This document shows, in pieces, positions 6,799-27,723 of a stretch of DNA of 64,000 nt. Every line of letters starts with the position of its first letter. Position 1 is the first letter of the stretch. The DNA comes from Algibacter mikhailovii (GTDB taxonomy: Bacteria > Bacteroidota > Bacteroidia > Flavobacteriales > Flavobacteriaceae): NCBI RefSeq assembly GCF_014651495.1, contig NZ_BMWZ01000005.1, positions 310,001-374,000 of the forward strand. Reading direction: 5' to 3'. A program made the position numbers and the translations under genes. A model generated the notes under the pieces. That model was not told the DNA's origin, searched no databases, and saw only the letters and a program-made list of their open reading frames with translations.

Positions 6799-8514
6799 AT
6801 GAGAAAAGTATTTTATATCGTTTTTTTCTTTTTTGTGCAATTAACGTGTTTGGGACAAATTGAACTGCCTTTAAAAAAGGTGGCCCAAGAACAGGTTTTT
6901 GTACATCTTAATACTAGCTTTTTAATTACTGGAGAGACTTTATATTATAAAATCTATTGCATAAATTCTGAGACTAATAAACTAAGTGGTCTCAGTAAAA
7001 TTTCCTATGTTGAACTTGTTGATGCGTCATTAAATGTCGTTGCTAAAAGTAAAGTTCGGTTAAATCAAGGTTGTGGTTATGGTGACTTTTTTATACCCAC
7101 ATCTTTGGCCTCAGGAAGTTATAAATTATTAGCATTTACAAGATGGATGCGCAATGAGAATCTACTATATGAACACGATGTCTTAATTATAAACCCCTTT
7201 ATTGAAAATCAATTTGAAAATAAAAAGAATAAGGAGTCTACAGATAATTTCAATTCTGAAAGTGCTACGATACAAAACAAAATAAATCCCATTTTTTCCC
7301 TTGAATTGCCAAAGACCGTATACCAACCTAGAAAGGAAGTTAAGTTTAAAGTTAAATCTTTAACAGGATTAACTATGGCTGGTAGGTATTCAGTATCCGT
7401 AAAAAAGAAGTTGCCATTTAAAGTGCCAAAATTGAAAACTAGTGTTAATTATAGTGATATTTATAAAAATAATAATGGACTTAAAGAGAGAGAGGCTTTT
7501 TTACCAGAATTTAGGGGAGAGTTAATAGAAGGGGTTTTGGTGAACCAAGTTACAGGAGAGCCTGTTAGCAGTCGAAACATTGCTTTATCCATTCCTGGAA
7601 AAACACCTTTGTTTAAGAACTCATTTACCAACCAAAACGGACAATTTTTTTTTAACATACTAGATACTTACAATAGCGATTCTGCACTTGTCTATACTCT
7701 CGGAACTAGTAATGAAGCTGAGTCTAATTTAGAAATTAAAATAAAAAATGATCCTCAAATGGATTATAGCTTCTTGGCCTTTAGGAATTTGGATTTTGAT
7801 GAAAATGATGAATCTTTTCTATTAAACGAAGTTATTAATAACCAGATAGAAAATTCGTATCTGAGTGTAAAGCGAACTATTATTCAAGATGAAAAACCCC
7901 CTGAGCTTTTCTATGGTTCAGAGGTTAAAGATTATTATTTGGATGATTATAAAAGATTTGCAACTTTAAAAGAAACCTTTGTTGAGGTTATAGAAAATGC
8001 TTGGATTGCAAAAAGAAATAACGACCATTATTTTGAGACAAAAAAAGATACAAAGAAATCAGATTACCGCTTACCAACTTTGCTTTTTATGGATGGAATT
8101 TTGATTGAAGAACATAAAGATATCATAGAATATAAGGCCTATGATATTGAAAAAATTAGTGTTTTAATTGATAGGTATATTTATGGATCTTTAATGTTTG
8201 ATGGTTTGATTTCTATTAAAACGAAAAATGGGGATTATAAAAAGCCTTCAGGTTCTTTTAAAGAGATTAAATTAACCAAGCCCGTATCAAACAAAGTTTA
8301 TTATCGTCCTGATTATTCCAAACCCGAGACCAATAAAAGAATTCCGGATTATAGAAGTCAGCTATTATGGGAGCCAAACCTTGAGCTTAAGGCGGATAAT
8401 CAATATATTAGTTTTTTTACTTCAGACAATTTGGGTGATTATATAATAAACGTTGAAGGATTTACGCATGATGGGGCGCCTGTTTCTATAAAAAAAGAAA
8501 TTTCAATTGAATGA
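6799..8514 (+). CDS. exported MG2-like (alpha-2-macroglobulin-type) domain protein
   Basis: About 571 residues. TTG at 6781 is in frame, but ATG at 6799 opens directly onto a signal peptide (MRKVFYIV, cut after CLGQ) and lies ten bases after the DUF4249 stop. The segment around residues 20-130 (QVFVHLNTSFLITGETLYYK and following) resembles the macroglobulin-2 domain found in exported Bacteroidota proteins that accompany TonB receptors; a second beta domain with a carboxypeptidase-regulatory look follows near 240-310. It is the third gene of a receptor-DUF4249-MG2 operon, a recurring layout. No catalytic motif or thioester is seen, so it is likely structural or a binding partner. The C-terminal third is not recognised. 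Confidence 0.8.
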   Translation: MRKVFYIVFFFFVQLTCLGQIELPLKKVAQEQVFVHLNTSFLITGETLYYKIYCINSETNKLSGLSKISYVELVDASLNVVAKSKVRLNQGCGYGDFFIPTSLASGSYKLLAFTRWMRNENLLYEHDVLIINPFIENQFENKKNKESTDNFNSESATIQNKINPIFSLELPKTVYQPRKEVKFKVKSLTGLTMAGRYSVSVKKKLPFKVPKLKTSVNYSDIYKNNNGLKEREAFLPEFRGELIEGVLVNQVTGEPVSSRNIALSIPGKTPLFKNSFTNQNGQFFFNILDTYNSDSALVYTLGTSNEAESNLEIKIKNDPQMDYSFLAFRNLDFDENDESFLLNEVINNQIENSYLSVKRTIIQDEKPPELFYGSEVKDYYLDDYKRFATLKETFVEVIENAWIAKRNNDHYFETKKDTKKSDYRLPTLLFMDGILIEEHKDIIEYKAYDIEKISVLIDRYIYGSLMFDGLISIKTKNGDYKKPSGSFKEIKLTKPVSNKVYYRPDYSKPETNKRIPDYRSQLLWEPNLELKADNQYISFFTSDNLGDYIINVEGFTHDGAPVSIKKEISIE

Positions 8515-18381: not shown

Positions 18382-19122
18382 TTATTTGTTTACAATTCTG
18401 ATGATGCTCAAATCATCATGCAGTATATAGCCGTTTTTATGTAAGGCTTCAAATTGATCTTCTAAAAATAAATTGCCGTTTTCTGTGGGGGGTTGAACCA
18501 AAAACAGATGTCTTAGTTTAGTCAATTCCTCATGACTTTTAGTGGCTTTAATTAGTTTGTCAATACCATCAGTGGAGATGGACACATCGTTTACATTTTT
18601 AAAATTCCAAGTTTGTATAACATCATCTTTGATAACATCAAATTTTTCACTTAAATGGTAGCCCAGAAAGTTAGGTGTGTTATTTTGATCTATGTTGGTG
18701 ATTTCCCCATTAATAGCAAACAGACCATCACCACTCATTTTTATACAAGCATTTAGGTCTTTTGTATTGTAAATAAGAAGGTTTACAGTTGATAATAACT
18801 CTTCAGTGGTTAGAAAAAAGAGTTTTTTTGTTTTTTTTAAATCATCAAATAATTGATTTAAAATAAAGTCGGCCACGTCCTCTAATGCCATGGTACTCAA
18901 GTCAAAATCCTCAATGATTGCTTTCATCTGAGGCAGCATTCTACAAGATTTATGAATGGATTTGCTATAGAGGACAGACGTAAATTGACTGTCTTTTGCG
19001 GAAGAGCAACCATCCATAACTGCACATACAAAAATGTCATCTGTAAGCTGAAAAGAATAGAAAAAATCTTCCGAAAAATGCGGATGATGGCTACTGCGTT
19101 TATGAATAGATAGAATTTTCAT
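18382..19122 (-). CDS. PP2C-family Ser/Thr protein phosphatase
   Basis: About 246 residues from ATG 19122; a TTG at 19164 is in frame but adds an unlikely extension. Motifs of metal-dependent PP2C phosphatases are in order: FVCAVMDGCSS (metal Asp-Gly), KMSGDGLFAI, VSISTDGIDKLI, and LHDDLSIIRI at the end (final metal Asp). It is short and divergent, with MDGCSS where most have DGMGG. It is the last gene of the sigma-kinase-phosphatase unit, 68 bases after the kinase stop, and the natural guess is that it reverses phosphorylation by that kinase. Confidence 0.85.
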   Translation of the reverse strand: MKILSIHKRSSHHPHFSEDFFYSFQLTDDIFVCAVMDGCSSAKDSQFTSVLYSKSIHKSCRMLPQMKAIIEDFDLSTMALEDVADFILNQLFDDLKKTKKLFFLTTEELLSTVNLLIYNTKDLNACIKMSGDGLFAINGEITNIDQNNTPNFLGYHLSEKFDVIKDDVIQTWNFKNVNDVSISTDGIDKLIKATKSHEELTKLRHLFLVQPPTENGNLFLEDQFEALHKNGYILHDDLSIIRIVNK

Positions 19123-19190
19123 TAGTGCATGGTATTTACATGTGTTATACAAGTAACAGGGCAAAAAAGGCCAAAATACCCTAAAATGAT

Positions 19191-21515
19191 TTAGGAATAA
19201 ATGTCATAATTTTTCCACCAATCGAGAGCATCTTTTCGCGTCCAAGGATTTTTTTGGTTTAACTTTTCAAAAAAAACAATAAGTTCATCAATACCACTGG
19301 GGCGCTTATTAGGGTCAAATCGAATACAGGACGCAAGAAATTCACTAAGTTCAATAGGCACATCTTTTCTTTCAATTAAATTATTTCTAAAATCGCCTTG
19401 TAATGTTTCCTCACCCGTTAGCATTTTTTGGGAGACTAATTCAAGTAAATATTGCCCACTAAATAAATACATGCCTAAAGCGCCTATGGAATAAATATCA
19501 ACCCTTAAATCAGTGTTAAAAGGGTCTCGGATTCTTTCAGGAGCCATAAACATTGGGGTGCCTCCAATTCTATTGATTTGAGTTTGTTGAGATAACGATG
19601 CATCAACATTTTTCACCAAACCAAAATCTAATAATTTTACTACGTCATACGCCCCACCTTGATTACAAAGCATGACGTTCATTGGTTTTATATCTCTATG
19701 CGCAAAACCTTTGTCATGCGCTTCTTTTAAAGAAAGGCATAAATGATATAACACATAAATGCCACGGGCTAAAGGAATTTCATTATTAGAATTCACCACT
19801 TTATCCAATGAAATTCCATTTAAAAATTCCATGACATAGTAGAAATTATTGTTCTCGGTAGTACCATAATCATATACTTTTATGGTGTTGGGGTGAGAAA
19901 GGGAAGATGTAATTTTCACTTCTTTTTCAAACCGATCTAACATGTCAGTATTCGCAAATTGGTTTTTTAAAATTTTTATTGCTACAGGTGTTTTAAGAAA
20001 GGTGTGTTCGGCTTTAAAAACTTCACCAAACCCACCCTCACCAAGTTTTTCTCGCAATTTATATTGACCTATTATACTAAAGTCATCAACCTTTTTGCCA
20101 ATTCTAGCAATTCTCACATTTGAATTAAAGAGCAAAAACGAGAGCACTAAAATGATAATAAAAAAGATAAAAAAAGTATATCTAAAATAAACTAAGGAAG
20201 CTAATGCTTCATCAAAATCTTCTTCGGTTATAACGCCAAAATTATGCTCAGGATACCATAAATACGCACCAATAACCTCAATGCCTCTATAATCTCTATA
20301 TGGTTTCATTAAGCTTCCATGGTAAATGGAATCTCCAAGTTTAATATGATTTAATGCATTGTCAACAATTTTGGTGAATGGCATTTCTACACTAGACAAA
20401 GTAGGTTTTGCACCATGCATGACATTGAGTCCTGGATCTTTCAATTCAATGTTATAAATTGTTTCTAGCAAGGTGTCTTTTAGTAAATAGGTTTTGCGTA
20501 AATCTTCAGTAAATCTTCCGGAGGAAATCATTTTACCCTCATTGTTGAAGGCGTAAGTTTCACTTGTAGCACCATGTTTTGAGGTGTTGAAAATTTCTGA
20601 AAATCCTTTTTTTGCAAGATTAGAACCTGCTAAAATTGCTATAACATTATTATGTTCATCAATAATGGGGCATAGAAAATTAATCCAAGTTTCATCCTGC
20701 ATTTTTAATTCAAAATTGTGAATTAAATCATAATTATTTATGGGAGGTAGAAATACGGTCTCGCCATTTTTGGCTTTTAAATAATCCTTATAGATTAATT
20801 GACCGAGGTCTATATTAAACATTTTAGAAATCCCTGTTGAATCTATTAATCCGGACCCTAAAATAGATTTTGGGCTACTATTACTTAGAATGGACATAAT
20901 AGCATAACCGTTATTCTTAGCGGTTTTTAAGAGCCATTTTGTAACGTCTCTGGAGACATCAGATTTTTTTAATAAAGCATAGGTCTCATCAATATTCTCT
21001 AAACTATCAATGGCTTTAGCCATGGCAATAAGCTCTGAGTCTTTTGATAAGTTTTCAATTTTGTTATTCTCAGTTGCAATCCATCGTTTAAATATTTCAG
21101 AGGTGGTGTTTAATAAAGCAATTTTTTCTTCTCTTTCAGATTCTAAAATGTTATCTCGAATATATAAGTTTGAAATTACGCCTAAGCCAAAAGTAACTAA
21201 GAGGAACAGGATTACCAGGATTAATCTATTTCTTTTGTTTCCAAAAAGTAATTTGGTCCAGTTCGTTACAATTTTGGTGCGAAAAACGGAGTCCTTTCTT
21301 CCAACTAATTTGGTGATTTCTTTTAAGGTAGTATTGTTCGCCTCTTTTTCAATGGCTTCTTCACCATGAATGTCATGGTACAATGACAAGACTTCCTTTT
21401 CAAGGTCTTCATCAGTACCACAGGCTTTTTTAATTTTGATTATAGCCTCGTCAAAAGGAAGGTCTATAACCTTAGCTATAATACTCGATATTTTATTATG
21501 TTGTTCCTTATCCAT
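19191..21515 (-). CDS. membrane Ser/Thr protein kinase with extracytoplasmic sensor domain
   Basis: 774 residues. Order: cytoplasmic N-terminus (1-95) of the type seen in bacterial kinases that accompany ECF-like sigma factors; membrane helix 1 (about 97-117); a periplasmic Cache-like sensor region (about 118-445); membrane helix 2 (about 448-468); then a complete kinase domain (about 486-750) with GEGGFGEVF, VAIKIL, HRDIKPMNV, DFGLVKN and MAPERI. All catalytic residues are present. The layout sensor first, kinase last is the reverse of PknB-type kinases. The start overlaps the sigma factor stop by one base (TAATG). Likely senses a periplasmic ligand and acts on the sigma factor or its partners (inference). 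Confidence 0.93.
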   Translation of the reverse strand: MDKEQHNKISSIIAKVIDLPFDEAIIKIKKACGTDEDLEKEVLSLYHDIHGEEAIEKEANNTTLKEITKLVGRKDSVFRTKIVTNWTKLLFGNKRNRLILVILFLLVTFGLGVISNLYIRDNILESEREEKIALLNTTSEIFKRWIATENNKIENLSKDSELIAMAKAIDSLENIDETYALLKKSDVSRDVTKWLLKTAKNNGYAIMSILSNSSPKSILGSGLIDSTGISKMFNIDLGQLIYKDYLKAKNGETVFLPPINNYDLIHNFELKMQDETWINFLCPIIDEHNNVIAILAGSNLAKKGFSEIFNTSKHGATSETYAFNNEGKMISSGRFTEDLRKTYLLKDTLLETIYNIELKDPGLNVMHGAKPTLSSVEMPFTKIVDNALNHIKLGDSIYHGSLMKPYRDYRGIEVIGAYLWYPEHNFGVITEEDFDEALASLVYFRYTFFIFFIIILVLSFLLFNSNVRIARIGKKVDDFSIIGQYKLREKLGEGGFGEVFKAEHTFLKTPVAIKILKNQFANTDMLDRFEKEVKITSSLSHPNTIKVYDYGTTENNNFYYVMEFLNGISLDKVVNSNNEIPLARGIYVLYHLCLSLKEAHDKGFAHRDIKPMNVMLCNQGGAYDVVKLLDFGLVKNVDASLSQQTQINRIGGTPMFMAPERIRDPFNTDLRVDIYSIGALGMYLFSGQYLLELVSQKMLTGEETLQGDFRNNLIERKDVPIELSEFLASCIRFDPNKRPSGIDELIVFFEKLNQKNPWTRKDALDWWKNYDIYS

Positions 21516-22081
21516 TAAATATCGCTACGCATAAATTTTTTCAACCATGCCTTAGCTACTTTCCAATCAATTTCAATGGTTTTTATAGAAACACCTAGCT
21601 CATCTGCTATTTCTTGCATTTTCATACCACCAAAAAATTTCAGTTCAACCACTTTAGCTTGCCTTTCATGAAGTTTTTCCAGGTGTTCTAAAGCCTCATC
21701 AAGAGAAAGCATAATTTCATCTTTTTCTACGGAATACGTTAGACCTTCCTCTAGGTCCAAATGGTATTCTCCTGACCCTCTTTTTATGGCATTTTTTTTA
21801 CGAGCATGGTGCACCAAAACACGTCTTATAGCTTGTGCGCTAACGGCAAAAAAGTGGGAACGTCCTTTCCAATCTATTTGATCTTGATCAACAAGACTCA
21901 TATAGGCTTCATTTACAAGTATGGTGGGTTGTAATGTGTGGCCGGGTCTCTCTCTTCGGTATAGCTTTTCGGCAATTTCATGCAGGTTGTCATAAACCAA
22001 AGGATATAAGTCTGCCGACTTATTATTTGTTCCTATGTTATGTAGTAATTGAGTGACTTCATGCTTTTTGTTTTTTGACAT
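21515..22081 (-). CDS. ECF-like sigma factor (TIGR02999-type)
   Basis: About 188 residues from ATG 22081; an in-frame ATG at 22114 would add 11 residues. Region 2 is seen in LYPLVYDNLHEIAEKLYRRE followed by HTLQPTILVNEAYMSLV and the DWKGRSHFFAVSAQAIRRVL segment typical of this family; region 4 helix-turn-helix in KMQEIADELGVSIKTIEIDW. This family is common in Planctomycetes and Acidobacteria, where it is linked with Ser/Thr kinases. No anti-sigma gene is present; the downstream gene is the kinase, translated in overlap. Control by phosphorylation is a reasonable inference. Confidence 0.93.
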   Translation of the reverse strand: MSKNKKHEVTQLLHNIGTNNKSADLYPLVYDNLHEIAEKLYRRERPGHTLQPTILVNEAYMSLVDQDQIDWKGRSHFFAVSAQAIRRVLVHHARKKNAIKRGSGEYHLDLEEGLTYSVEKDEIMLSLDEALEHLEKLHERQAKVVELKFFGGMKMQEIADELGVSIKTIEIDWKVAKAWLKKFMRSDI

Positions 22082-22222
22082 GTTATTGAGGTTTATAAAT
22101 AATGGTATAGACATAAAAGTAGAAAATTTAATTAATTTTATACTGAACTTATTGATTTAATTGATGGATTATAAGTATTGTGGAAAAAAATATTAATTCT
22201 AATTAGGGTTTTTCAGGAGGTA

Positions 22223-22247
22223 TTGCCCTGTTGTATATGAAGGGCAA
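22223..22247. promoter_or_regulatory. inverted repeat TTGCCCT-N11-AGGGCAA between sigma operon and 22282 gene
   Basis: Perfect 7-bp arms with an 11-base spacer, ending 34 bases before the start codon of the divergent exported protein. It lacks a T-run. It may be an operator or part of a promoter read by the neighbouring sigma factor. Confidence 0.45.
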
Positions 22248-22281
22248 AATTTGGTCTTTTTAAATTTTAAAATAAACAATT

Positions 22282-23118
22282 ATGAAAACTAGAATAACAA
22301 CCTTTTTAATCGCATTTTTATTCATCCTAACAGCAAGTGCTAAAAATATTCTTGTTAATAAAAGTGATGGTACTTCAGAAAACATAGCATACAATCATAA
22401 AACCCTGTTAAATAAAGGTTTGCAAAATGATAAAGGAAGTATTATCAGCTTTCAAGAAATTAGTGCAATTAGTACTTCAGATTTTGATGCTTACGATGAA
22501 ATACTAAGAAAAACCCAAAGAAGAGCCACTCATGTAAAGGTTGAGTTTACAGGAGATATGAATAAGTATGCTGCACGTTTAGAAAAATTAAAGCGTAATA
22601 GAGACGGTGCCGATGTGACACGTGGTGTGGGAGGTATCATGTCAATTATTGGTGTTTTATCTGGAGATAGGGAGCTAACGGCAGCCGGCATCGCTGTTAA
22701 TGGTGCGGGATATATAGCTAGAAATATCAATGATGATAGAACTGCAGATACACAAACGGCCATGTTAAATGAGCTTGATAATCGTACTAAGAAGATTGAA
22801 AATCAACCAGAATCAGAAGAAGATCAATTACGTAAAAACTACGGAGATGAAAATGTTGATGGATTAAAGGAATTAATGAGCCATAATTATGAAAAAGCAA
22901 CTGCTTATGCTAATGTAGGCGAACTTTCAAAAGATGCTAATCATAGGTTATCTGCGATGTGGCTGAAGGCTTTGATTGCCGCTGATCAAAATTTAGAAGT
23001 CGAAACAAACAAGGCGTACAGTAAAATAGTCACTTTTGATCCAGAAATCAAGAATATTCAAGAAGCGGAAAAGGAAACAACGAATTTATTAGCTGAGTTG
23101 GAAGCGTTAAGAAATTAG
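22282..23118 (+). CDS. exported protein of unknown function, divergent from the sigma operon
   Basis: 278 residues, signal peptide MKTRITTFLIAFLFILTASA. An N-terminal beta part (about 22-95) is followed by a Gly/Ile-rich hydrophobic stretch (GVGGIMSIIGVLSGDRELTAAGIAVNG, split here: GVGGIMSIIG and AAGIAVNGAGY) that resembles glycine-zipper segments of membrane-inserting proteins, and then by acidic helical repeats that look TPR-like (about 185-275). No known family. Its position head to head with the sigma factor suggests it is a target or input of that module. Convergent terminator downstream. Confidence 0.75.
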   Translation: MKTRITTFLIAFLFILTASAKNILVNKSDGTSENIAYNHKTLLNKGLQNDKGSIISFQEISAISTSDFDAYDEILRKTQRRATHVKVEFTGDMNKYAARLEKLKRNRDGADVTRGVGGIMSIIGVLSGDRELTAAGIAVNGAGYIARNINDDRTADTQTAMLNELDNRTKKIENQPESEEDQLRKNYGDENVDGLKELMSHNYEKATAYANVGELSKDANHRLSAMWLKALIAADQNLEVETNKAYSKIVTFDPEIKNIQEAEKETTNLLAELEALRN

Positions 23119-25632: not shown

Positions 25633-27723
25633 TTAATCTTTTATAGTAGGTGGAGTGGAAGGCAAATAAGGTTTTATTTGGTTTTGTGCTTCTTCTAATT
25701 GTTTTTCTCCTCTTTTAATTGATGCCTGTAAATATTCCAAATCGCCTTCAAAAAGACCAGCTTCTAAATCTGCTCCAATATAAAGTACAAAATTCCAAAA
25801 AAGCCAACCGTTGGCAGCTTCAAATTTGTCAATGAATTCATTGGATTTTTCTATATCTCCCAAAGCTGCATGAAGAAAAAATAACTGATAATAACTTAAA
25901 GGTGTGTCTAGACTTTCTTTAGAGCTTAATAAGGTGTTATATAAATCAATTTGTTTTCTCAATAATTCTTTTCCGGCTTCTATCTGCCCATCGCGGATTA
26001 AACACATGCCATAACCCCAATAAACCGTTCTTGATGCTAAAGAATTTACGCCTTCTTTTTCAACTTGATTATAGCATTTTTCCCAGTATATTTTTCCTTT
26101 TTTAAAATCTCTCTTATGCATGTGTAGTGCTCCTAATAATGCATTGCGCTGTTGATTATCCTTAAGTAGATTTTTATTAACATAGTTAAGAGCGTCATTA
26201 TACCTTCTAAACTGTATGAATGAATACACTCTATCTCTTCTAAACCTTTTTACAGTCTGTAATTCAAATATTTTATCAAAATAATAATCTACAAAGAATG
26301 AGTTGTTTAGTGTTCTGTAAAACTCAAGGTAGTGCGTATAGAGCCCTATTAGCTGGCCTCTAGATTGGGCGTATTTTTCTGCCTCTTTAAGGGTTAATAT
26401 AGCTTCTTTGTAGTTGTTCTTTCTTTTATAAATGCGAATTAAATTTAATAAAGCACCCACATTATTAGGGTAAATTGTTAAACTCTTTTCGTAATCTAAA
26501 ATCGCTTTATCGTCTTCATTTATTAACAAGAAGTAATTTCCTCTTATATTATAAGCTAATGAATTATTTGGGCTTAATTCTAAAGCTTTATTTGTTAAAT
26601 GAAGGACTTCATTTATATTGTTATTATCGCCTACATAGTCTCCATATCGTTCAAAAGTAGTGAATGCGAGACCGATATAAGGTGAACTATATAATGAGTC
26701 ACTTTTAATAGCTAGTTCATAAGACGTTTTGGCTTTGTTAATTAATTCTAACCAAACATCATGTTTTTGAAAAGCGCGGTTGGCTTTAAACCTATATTCC
26801 TCACCTTTTAAAAAATACTCATAGGCCGTTTTATTTTGTGTTGGAATGGCACTTAATTCATTTTGCAAATTTGGAGAAATAATGGTCTCAAGATTGCTAG
26901 AAATGGATTCTATTACATTAGCTTGAACCGTAAACATTTCTGAAACATCTTCATCATAGCGGTCAGACCAAAGAATTTTGTTATCATCTACTCTAATTAA
27001 TTCAGCTGAGATAATGGCGCGATCTTTTATGCGCTGAACATGTCCTTCAATAACATAATTTACTTCAAGTTCTTTAGCAATGGTTTTTAAAGGTGTTGAT
27101 GAATTTCTGTAGCGTTCTACGGAACGTCTTGAAACTACTGTGAACTCAGGTATTTTTGATAATTGATCACGAATTCCTCCCATGATGCCATTACAAAAAA
27201 ATAAATTTTCTTTATTAGTGCTATTATTTACAAATGGTAATACGGCTATAGATTTTTTGAGATTTTCATCAAGACCATTAGCCTTGTTGACAGTTTCATT
27301 AAATATTATTAAACCAACCAGAATCAATACGGGGATAATTGCAAGTATTTTTTTTGAAAACGTTTTTTTTGGAGGAGAAATAGTTCTTTGATTTTTCACT
27401 TCTCCAGGAGGATAACCATAAAAGTTATGAAAACAGGTATTGAAATAAGTTGGACTTGTGAAACCAACCCGGTAAGCTATTTCTGAAGCCGTAAACTCAT
27501 TTTTTTTAAGGAGTTCCATCGCTCTTTCTAGGCGATATTCTCTAATAAACTGGCTTGTTGATTTACCGTTTATATCTTTTAATTTTCTATGTAATTGTGA
27601 CCTGCTATATCCTATTTCATCAGCTAGCTCTGAAACTCCAAAATTTTCGTTTTCAAAATTAACTTTAAGAATACTTGTCAATTTATTAATGAAAGACTCA
27701 TCTATGGACAACTTCTGGTTCAT
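25633..27723 (-). CDS. AraC-type regulator fused to membrane helix, FlgO/TolB-like and TPR domains
   Basis: 696 residues. An AraC-type helix-turn-helix domain comes first (about 10-112; FGVSELADEIGYSRSQLHRK and ASEIAYRVGFTSPTYFN), then one membrane helix (about 127-147), then a domain of the FlgO/TolB-N type seen in adenylate-cyclase-like proteins (SIAVLPFVNNS, YVIEGHVQR, LWSDRYDED; about 155-285), then TPR repeats to about 650. So DNA-binding is cytoplasmic and the sensor part periplasmic. It is the obvious candidate to control the two lipoprotein genes with matching leaders just downstream (inference). Confidence 0.9.
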   Translation of the reverse strand: MNQKLSIDESFINKLTSILKVNFENENFGVSELADEIGYSRSQLHRKLKDINGKSTSQFIREYRLERAMELLKKNEFTASEIAYRVGFTSPTYFNTCFHNFYGYPPGEVKNQRTISPPKKTFSKKILAIIPVLILVGLIIFNETVNKANGLDENLKKSIAVLPFVNNSTNKENLFFCNGIMGGIRDQLSKIPEFTVVSRRSVERYRNSSTPLKTIAKELEVNYVIEGHVQRIKDRAIISAELIRVDDNKILWSDRYDEDVSEMFTVQANVIESISSNLETIISPNLQNELSAIPTQNKTAYEYFLKGEEYRFKANRAFQKHDVWLELINKAKTSYELAIKSDSLYSSPYIGLAFTTFERYGDYVGDNNNINEVLHLTNKALELSPNNSLAYNIRGNYFLLINEDDKAILDYEKSLTIYPNNVGALLNLIRIYKRKNNYKEAILTLKEAEKYAQSRGQLIGLYTHYLEFYRTLNNSFFVDYYFDKIFELQTVKRFRRDRVYSFIQFRRYNDALNYVNKNLLKDNQQRNALLGALHMHKRDFKKGKIYWEKCYNQVEKEGVNSLASRTVYWGYGMCLIRDGQIEAGKELLRKQIDLYNTLLSSKESLDTPLSYYQLFFLHAALGDIEKSNEFIDKFEAANGWLFWNFVLYIGADLEAGLFEGDLEYLQASIKRGEKQLEEAQNQIKPYLPSTPPTIKD

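Follow-up and report, generated by a model that had tools for sequence, protein, structure and literature searches.

A PP2C phosphatase gene and a divergent exported-protein gene share a promoter-like element at a putative phosphorylation-switched ECF43-like sigma locus of Algibacter mikhailovii

In canonical ECF pairs, the anti-sigma factor is autoregulated, being made under the control of its own sigma factor. We take the ECF43 group to be the TIGR02999/PF07638 family. According to the consulted parts of three papers, ECF43 sigma factors of Vibrio, Xanthomonas, and Hyphomonas are activated by cognate Hanks-type kinases (PMC8999054, PMC13147305, PMC8103513). EcfP of Vibrio parahaemolyticus is described there as having no acidic DAED motif, a phosphosite Thr, a cognate Ser/Thr kinase (PknT), and no anti-sigma factor; its regulon is that of polymyxin resistance, and the same excerpts do not mention a phosphatase for EcfP (PMC8999054, PMC8103513). 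EcfK of Xanthomonas citri, also an ECF43 factor, carries the motif QATE with Thr51 as the phosphosite, is paired with the membrane receptor kinase PknS, and controls a type VI secretion system, as stated in the excerpts of the 2026 EcfK paper, which add that phosphatase-mediated inactivation may provide additional control and go no further (PMC13147305).

The 64-kb window (the whole stretch of DNA that was analysed) contains four ORFs of a locus that compares closely with these pairs, at the positions given in the first-pass annotation:

18382..19122, minus strand: PP2C phosphatase (PF13672 (PP2C_2), 3.3e-8; motifs VMDG, SGDG, TDG, and DD)
19191..21515, minus strand: sensor Ser/Thr kinase (Pfam, AF2, and the catalytic motifs VAIK/HRDIKP/DFG/APE)
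21515..22081, minus strand: ECF43-like sigma factor (TIGR02999, 7.4e-58; PF07638, 3.5e-50); the ORF is open to 22114, with the start at 22081 preferred
22282..23118, plus strand: exported protein, a predicted regulon member (signal peptide read by eye, beta domain, glycine-zipper-like helices, TPR-like tail)

The sigma factor scored 195 bits against TIGR02999, above the cut-off of 126, and 171 bits against PF07638 (Sigma70_ECF). Its start most likely lies near 22081 (residue 12) rather than at 22114, and three orthologs begin at the equivalent of residues 12-15. Alignment of region 2.2 revealed that the acidic DAED/DxxD residues are replaced by an uncharged QPTI motif, which aligns with DAKD/TAQD of canonical ECF factors:

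21920..21931, minus strand: codons Q62-P63-T64-I65 (199-aa numbering), replacing the acidic DAED motif of region 2.2
21923-21925, minus strand: codon of Thr64, the predicted phosphosite, from alignment and the literature motifs STTA (EcfP) and QATE (EcfK)

Of 51 aligned sigma rows, which include two second copies of a locus, 50 have Thr at this position, and Thr64 corresponds, as matched by motif, to the Thr of EcfP STTA and to T51 of EcfK, although the motif itself differs from that of EcfP as given in the excerpts. A Hanks-type kinase gene adjoins the sigma gene, as in ECF43 pairs. The anti-sigma gene that adjoins the sigma gene of anti-sigma-controlled ECF factors was not found at the locus, and no match to an anti-sigma family was obtained among eight scanned proteins (those of the four genes and of four neighbouring genes), in agreement with the first-pass annotation. 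These features suggest that the sigma factor is ECF43-like and of the phospho-activated kind. A sigma circuit switched by a kinase in place of an anti-sigma factor, as was originally proposed, is therefore consistent with the sequence, but the loss of the DAED motif and the Thr at the EcfP/EcfK phosphosite place it in a known kind of mechanism, already described in Vibrio, Xanthomonas, and Hyphomonas. Sigma relatives of this type are also frequent elsewhere in the phylum, beyond the family: 57 of 395 genomes at E<=1e-15, a count that includes the window's own genome. No solved relative of the sigma profile (A1) was found at E<=0.001.

The sigma-kinase overlap described at first was confirmed, and consists of one shared base (TAATG). 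The kinase is predicted to comprise an N-terminal helical module (residues 1-50), a dCache-like sensor (~120-435) between two transmembrane segments (~95-118 and ~439-464, with limits set by eye and from AF2 helices), and a kinase domain (485-740; Pkinase PF00069, 3.5e-45). The dCache-like assignment draws on weak Pfam matches, dCache_1 being detected in 10 of 11 kinase members at E<=0.1 (0.03 for the window protein, 2e-8 for the best relative). The top 50 matches of a fold search were kinases only, and say nothing on the sensor. The predicted 3-4 helix N-terminal region of PknS is comparable to the N-terminal helices of this kinase; in PknS, however, the excerpts place the cytoplasmic kinase part N-terminally, ahead of the periplasmic part, whereas here the sensor comes first and the kinase domain after it (PMC13147305). 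In 13 of the 16 distinct loci of the subfamily, one of which is truncated by a contig end, the kinase was kept beside the sigma gene. The kinase of the window was the sole protein kinase to pass the Pfam cut-off when its own genome was searched. Taken together with the sigma motif, the sigma factor is probably turned on by this membrane-sensor kinase.

The locus carries a promoter-like element, TAGGGTTT-N14-CCCTGTTA, which may also be written in a -35/-10-like form as TAGGGTTTT-N13-CCCTGTTA:

19154..19183, minus strand: element before the phosphatase gene, between it and the kinase gene, 31 nt from the ATG (1 mismatch, E 2.5e-4)
22204..22233, plus strand: element before the exported gene, 48 nt from the ATG (1 mismatch, E 2.3e-7)
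22223-22229 and 22241-22247 (span 22223..22247), no strand assigned: inverted repeat with 7-bp arms, read by eye

Only these two of the 41 ATG-started ORFs of at least 150 aa in the window are preceded by the element (1 mismatch each; the next best has 5). This count is unbiased, whereas that over 17 stretches is biased because most of them were fetched for holding sites. No element reading into the sigma gene was detected at up to 4 mismatches in the loci compared. The proposal that the circuit targets the divergent exported gene thus gains from a promoter-like element that it shares with the locus. That the same element also marks the phosphatase is a point absent from the earlier annotation. 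The inverted repeat TTGCCCT/AGGGCAA, which had been noticed in the promoter region of the exported gene, is real (a repeat search with a minimum length of 8 did not list it), but its left arm is part of the element. The same genome has the dyad at 3 sites, whereas the 17 searched stretches of relatives contain none; its reading as an operator or main signal was rejected because the element over the left arm is kept and the dyad is not.

The exported protein matched no Pfam or NCBIfam family, and a paralog in the same genome is 89% identical. A fold search returned nothing at E<=0.001; AF2 helices, and TPR chains among the Foldseek matches short of that threshold, are compatible with the TPR-like tail that had been noticed at first, without securing it.

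A model of the element (R1), built from 21 sites in other genomes, detected 11 sites in the own genome at E<1e-3, 7 of which precede exported C-N hydrolases or outer-membrane proteins. Since sites from three of the four sigma carriers went into R1, only the own genome tests it independently. The pattern itself, at up to 1 mismatch, gave 12 matches there; two of these (C5:222887 and C8:162363), and the single match in genome G237, were absent from R1 among the matches listed. Among 22 genomes, the pattern at this stringency matched 21 times in the four sigma-bearing genomes and twice in the other 18, and R1 at E<1e-3 gave 1 site in 14 genomes where the sigma factor was not found. Four of the other 18 genomes carry distant sigma relatives. 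At E<=1e-4, R1 sites occurred in all 4 sigma carriers (6-9 sites each), as defined from a draw of 299 family genomes, and in 3 of the 294 others among the 298 family genomes searched. Among the model hits in genomes without this sigma factor, those in G169, G052, and G012 were taken as chance, except perhaps for one: three of the four in G169 belong to a single sequence that is repeated, and the stretches examined there contain no relative of the regulon genes, while the fourth lies ~90 nt before an exported-looking 228-aa ORF; the single hit in G052 is inside a long ORF, and that in G012 precedes a long ORF unlike regulon members.

The association extends to other orders, where five sigma loci (L096, L099, L100, L102, and L108) contain 9 matches at up to 2 mismatches, compared with a mean of 0.07 in 15 shuffles. 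Five of the 9 precede a phosphatase, exported gene, or another regulon-type gene; three (in L100) are mutually alike, and a single one (L096:2219) is followed by no ORF. No match of this kind occurred in Flammeovirga loci (113 kb), other ECF43-like loci (102 kb), or f7 loci (63 kb). Individual sites also depart from the pattern: a second copy of the exported gene in G252 (L017) lacks the element (best match 8 mismatches in 200 nt), and 2 of the 9 model sites in G145 (contig C12) have no ORF of at least 60 aa within 200 nt behind them.

One possibility, which we consider unlikely, is that the element is an operator of some DNA-binding regulator with which the sigma circuit merely travels. Its AGGG-N-CCCT symmetry, with a dyad-like AGGG...CCCT, would suit an operator. 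So would G017, the only congener among the examined genomes: it carries the exported gene, four good sites, and amidohydrolase and outer-membrane genes, with no match to the sigma factor at E<=1e-15 (of 12 candidates, 10 were scored) or to the kinase at E<=1e-4. Here the sigma and kinase genes may lie in a gap of the assembly or have been lost recently, or something else may read the element. However, in 37 curated sites, picked by the pattern and an ORF behind it, the element is directed towards its gene and lies 15-75 nt from the ATG, and none has TAnnTTTG, which we take to be the housekeeping promoter box, between element and ATG. This box is likewise found at -75 to -10 of 0 of 27 ORFs with the motif, compared with 20 of 156 others. 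Moreover, an element variant adjoins the sigma-kinase genes in three Flammeovirga sigma loci, and no accompanying regulator gene was seen on unsystematic inspection. A promoter that the sigma factor would itself read is thus the preferred interpretation.

For the phosphatase, the most likely start is at 19122 (MKILSIHK...), as in its orthologs, and its VMDG, SGDG, TDG, and DD motifs, which presumably hold the metal-binding Asp residues, are kept in 7 of 7 aligned orthologs. Its element was detected in 6 of 7 loci (mismatches: window, 1; L098, 1; L009, 2; L097, 2; L096, 2; L095, 4) and across four gene arrangements; the phosphatase of L099 lacks it. The tandem sigma-kinase-phosphatase order recurs in L009 and L098, and the four-gene order, whose conservation had been suggested as a check, gives a mixed picture, being exact in one further locus (L009), while the genes are rearranged in L095, L097, L096, and L099. 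The association of sigma, kinase, and phosphatase is not due to chance, because it recurs in other genera. No phosphatase was found in the Flammeovirga sigma loci.

The phosphatase is proposed to act negatively. Some PP2C proteins (RsbU/SpoIIE-type) activate sigma factors by partner switching, and a phosphatase acting positively in this way, or on another substrate, would leave no negative feedback. Such switches require an anti-sigma/anti-anti-sigma pair, however, and none is present among the eight scanned proteins; in the described ECF43 systems, the phosphorylated form is the active form, according to the consulted excerpts (PMC8999054, PMC13147305), and positive action is judged improbable. 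It is more doubtful still that the locus is an ordinary ECF43 sigma-kinase pair with the phosphatase and exported gene as neighbours of no regulatory meaning: the exact gene order is kept in L009 only, and the phosphatase was not found in the examined DNA of 9 of 16 subfamily sigma loci, but in 6 of 7 loci it keeps its element despite rearrangement, and the 6 family genomes (of 298) with the exported protein include all 4 sigma carriers.

Other Bacteroidota ECF43-like pairs (L011-L014 and L021-L049) also have a TIGR02999-type sigma factor with Thr at the site. Of 29 phylum loci, 24 have a kinase no more than 1.5 kb away, and the kinase is of full length in 4 of 4 f7 loci; the N-terminal module of the kinase is common to 12 of 33 such loci at E<1e-3. 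Unlike the present locus, they lack the promoter-like element, and no PP2C was found in the 1.5-kb flanks of L011-L049, nor by tblastn in the 15-16 kb f7 stretches. No paper tying a PP2C phosphatase to an ECF43 circuit was found among the matches listed, in a search that covered few subscription journals and no preprints. The new part is the wiring (the element at the phosphatase and exported gene), not the replacement of an anti-sigma factor by a kinase.

In the circuit that we propose, the sigma gene would have no copy of its own promoter element in front, and unphosphorylated sigma would be inactive because region 2.2 lacks the acidic RNA polymerase-contacting residues. The membrane kinase would sense something outside the inner membrane through its dCache-like domain and phosphorylate Thr64, thereby restoring negative charge. 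Phosphorylated sigma would then read TAGGGTTTT-N13-CCCTGTTA promoters, driving the divergent exported protein, the PP2C phosphatase, and a regulon of scattered genes for exported amide/amidine hydrolases and outer-membrane proteins. Dephosphorylation of the sigma factor and/or the kinase by the PP2C phosphatase would close a negative feedback loop, a role that in canonical ECF circuits belongs to the co-transcribed anti-sigma factor. As in a canonical pair, the sigma factor would direct the making of its own antagonist; unlike in that pair, the antagonist would be a phosphatase rather than a binding anti-sigma factor, and the sigma gene has no copy of the element. From the genomic evidence, a phosphorylation-switched ECF sigma factor with a built-in phosphatase off-switch is considered likely.

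How phospho-activated ECF sigma factors are switched off is a little-answered point in the literature, judging from the excerpts of the EcfK paper (PMC13147305). The locus offers a candidate phosphatase and feedback design, together with a promoter sequence and a list of targets, which make this question directly testable in marine bacteria that are not known pathogens. It seems reasonably probable that several Bacteroidota orders use a self-limiting phospho-sigma switch, in which the sigma factor transcribes its own PP2C off-switch in place of an autoregulated anti-sigma factor, and that a promoter class not recognised before puts exported C-N hydrolases and outer-membrane proteins, as a conserved regulon, under the control of this sigma factor. 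The promoter consensus lets such regulons be read from genomes alone.

The four open reading frames described in the first-pass annotation were confirmed in the window (own-genome contig C5, 310001-374000), and are arranged as follows:

18382-19122: PP2C phosphatase (PF13672)
19191-21515: membrane Ser/Thr kinase (PF00069), overlapping the sigma gene by one base
21515-22114, start probably at 22081: sigma factor (TIGR02999/PF07638)
22282-23118: exported protein, head to head with the other three genes, matching no family

Region 2.2 of the window sigma factor reads TLQPTILVNEAY, where canonical ECF factors align with DAKD-LVQ or TAQD-VLQ. The third letter of this motif is Thr64, and the equivalent position is phosphorylated in EcfP (motif STTA) and EcfK (motif QATE, T51), according to PMC8999054 and PMC13147305, respectively. 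Threonine occupies this position in 50 of 51 aligned Bacteroidota sigma rows, two of which represent one locus fetched twice and one of which is partial. The subfamily of the window carries QPT[IL]; outside it, most members show another Thr plus an Ala (e.g., QTTA, NTTA, STTA). The earlier proposal of a sigma circuit switched by phosphorylation was thus right in kind, but this is a known mechanism (ECF43).

The window kinase is the only own-genome kinase above the Pfam cut-off. Its residues 1-50 form a helical module, followed by a transmembrane segment, a dCache-like region (Pfam match at E<=0.1 in 10 of 11 relatives), a second transmembrane segment, and a C-terminal kinase domain with intact motifs. 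The module was matched by HMM (E<1e-3) in 12 of 33 other ECF43-like loci (L011-L014, L021-L049), where it is common to kinases adjoining the sigma genes while the rest of the proteins differs. It is comparable to the N-terminal helical region of PknS, as described in PMC13147305, and is possibly a sigma-docking part of these kinases. The same full-length architecture was observed in all four loci of family f7 (L053-L056), which pair more distant sigma genes with sensor kinases (31-33% identity over residues 1-770) and lack the promoter-like element.

This element, TAGGGTTT-N14-CCCTGTTA, is common to the upstream regions of the exported gene, its second own-genome copy (89% identical), and most orthologs. 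Among the 41 window ORFs of at least 150 aa, the best match within 150 nt upstream had one mismatch for the exported gene and for PP2C, and at least five for the rest. A scan of 22 genomes (up to two mismatches; control, the pattern read backwards) gave 17 matches versus 0 in the own genome, 10 versus 2 in G145, 8 versus 3 in G252, 5 versus 1 in G237, 4 versus 2 in the congener G017, and 48 versus 52 in the other 17 genomes together. Eight own-genome matches (0-1 mismatch) lie within 18 kb of contig C1, all on a single strand, and every one of them precedes a gene for an exported protein. In 37 curated sites, positions T0, G2, G3, T7, C24, T25, and T28 were invariant and the distance to the ATG was 15-75 nt, partly due to selection, because sites were picked by the pattern and an ORF behind it, with three start codons set by hand. 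TAnnTTTG, the Bacteroidota housekeeping box, was found between element and ATG in none of them.

A sequence-only model, R1, was built from 21 sites, all from other genomes, with three of the four sigma carriers contributing training sites. At E<1e-3, R1 recovered 11 own-genome sites (the two in the window among them, plus a new site on contig C7), 9 in G145, 7 in G252, 6 in G237, 4 in G017, and one (G012) across 14 genomes where this sigma was not found; in one of these 14, G025, the exported protein is matched weakly and in part. Across 298 family genomes at E<=1e-4, R1 found 9 sites each in the own genome and G145, 6 each in G237 and G252, 4 each in G017 and G169 (in the latter, three sites repeat the same sequence and the fourth is single), 1 in G052 (inside an ORF), and none in the rest.

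Five loci outside the family (L096, L099, L100, L102, L108), fetched by sigma protein alone, gave 9 element matches (<=2 mismatches), where 15 shuffles averaged 0.07; three in L100 resemble one another, and one in L096 is not followed by an ORF. The other five stand before a PP2C gene, an ortholog of the exported protein, an amidohydrolase gene, and two genes of outer-membrane type. No match (<=2 mismatches) was found in Flammeovirga, other ECF43-like, or f7 loci. In three Flammeovirga loci (L105, L106, L107), sigma-kinase is flanked by a gene family with an AD[IV]DP N-terminus, preceded by a common variant, AGG(GG)TTTT then CGCCTATGTAAGTGAA or a sequence close to it, found by eye and offered as a lead. 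Flammeovirga strains OC4 and SJP92 each carry two subfamily sigma-kinase loci.

At E<=1e-15, sigma was detected in 4 of 299 family genomes, own included, in 5 of 296 genomes at the order level (apart from the own genome, these are four distant f7 relatives), and in 57 of 395 across the phylum. The close subfamily comprises 16 distinct loci (window, L009, L095-L108; L095 and L097 are identical to L008 and L010), and in the stretches examined a kinase is present at 13 of them, a PP2C at 7, and the exported gene at 5. The exact four-gene order of the window recurs in L009. L098 has a sigma-kinase-PP2C tandem with the exported gene downstream; the kinase is convergent with sigma-PP2C in L095 and divergent from it in L097; PP2C is convergent with sigma-kinase in L099 and with the sigma gene in L096, where the stretch examined contains no kinase. 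In L100, with neither kinase nor PP2C in the stretch examined, the exported gene lies 7 kb from the sigma gene, which is directly adjoined by a relative (L100:10705-11895, 41% identical) of the regulon AAT-like protein, in another order. L096, also of another order, has a relative (6901-7686, 47%) of the regulon SphA-like protein beside or near its sigma gene. Near this locus also lies a relative (32% across some 350 residues) of the protein at window 25633-27723, in which, by eye, an AraC-type regulator is joined to a membrane segment and a TPR-like tail.

The genes behind the 11 own-genome R1 sites, with signal peptides judged by eye, are:

Exported protein (two copies)
PP2C
Two PF13557 outer-membrane-type proteins
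Amidohydro_3
Amidase
CBAH (choloylglycine hydrolase family)
DDAH/ADI-like
AAT/C45-like, behind the C7 site (assigned on its G252 relative, whose own site was in the R1 training set)
Coiled-coil-like exported protein

C-N hydrolase families stand behind five of the 11 sites, so the regulon may serve to take up and cleave N-acyl or guanidino compounds. Against the circuit reading, a search of G017 found neither sigma nor kinase, and this congener retains the exported gene, amidohydrolase, outer-membrane gene, and four good sites; one exported-gene copy in G252 lacks the element, and 2 of 9 sites in G145 have no ORF within 200 nt. On own-genome contig C1, two adjacent ORFs (L050:2374-4188) resemble one amidohydrolase gene split in two, the Amidohydro_3 match of L050:3130-4188 being limited to the first half of the profile, and a longer amidohydrolase-like ORF (L050:600-2354) lies beside them. 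YSC84/SYLF-like genes lie beside the own-genome (4.4 Mb) regulon cluster (L050:12317-12838), adjoining sites in G145 (L088:1792-2346), and near the G145 sigma locus (L008:2024-2563).

The PP2C catalytic motifs are kept in all seven loci, and the element directly precedes PP2C in six, with one mismatch in the window and L098, two in L009, L097, and L096, and four in L095; L099 has none before PP2C. These six represent four arrangements: PP2C follows the kinase in the window, L009, and L098; it follows the sigma gene in L095, where the kinase is convergent, and in L097, where the kinase is divergent; and in L096 it is convergent with the sigma gene. No element reading into the sigma gene was found at up to four mismatches. 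The persistence of the PP2C element through four arrangements, together with its absence before sigma, points to a sigma factor that would be set by kinase and phosphatase activity, with its phosphatase rising when sigma is active. The new part, as predicted from sequence, is this phosphatase-in-regulon design, with its promoter and regulon.
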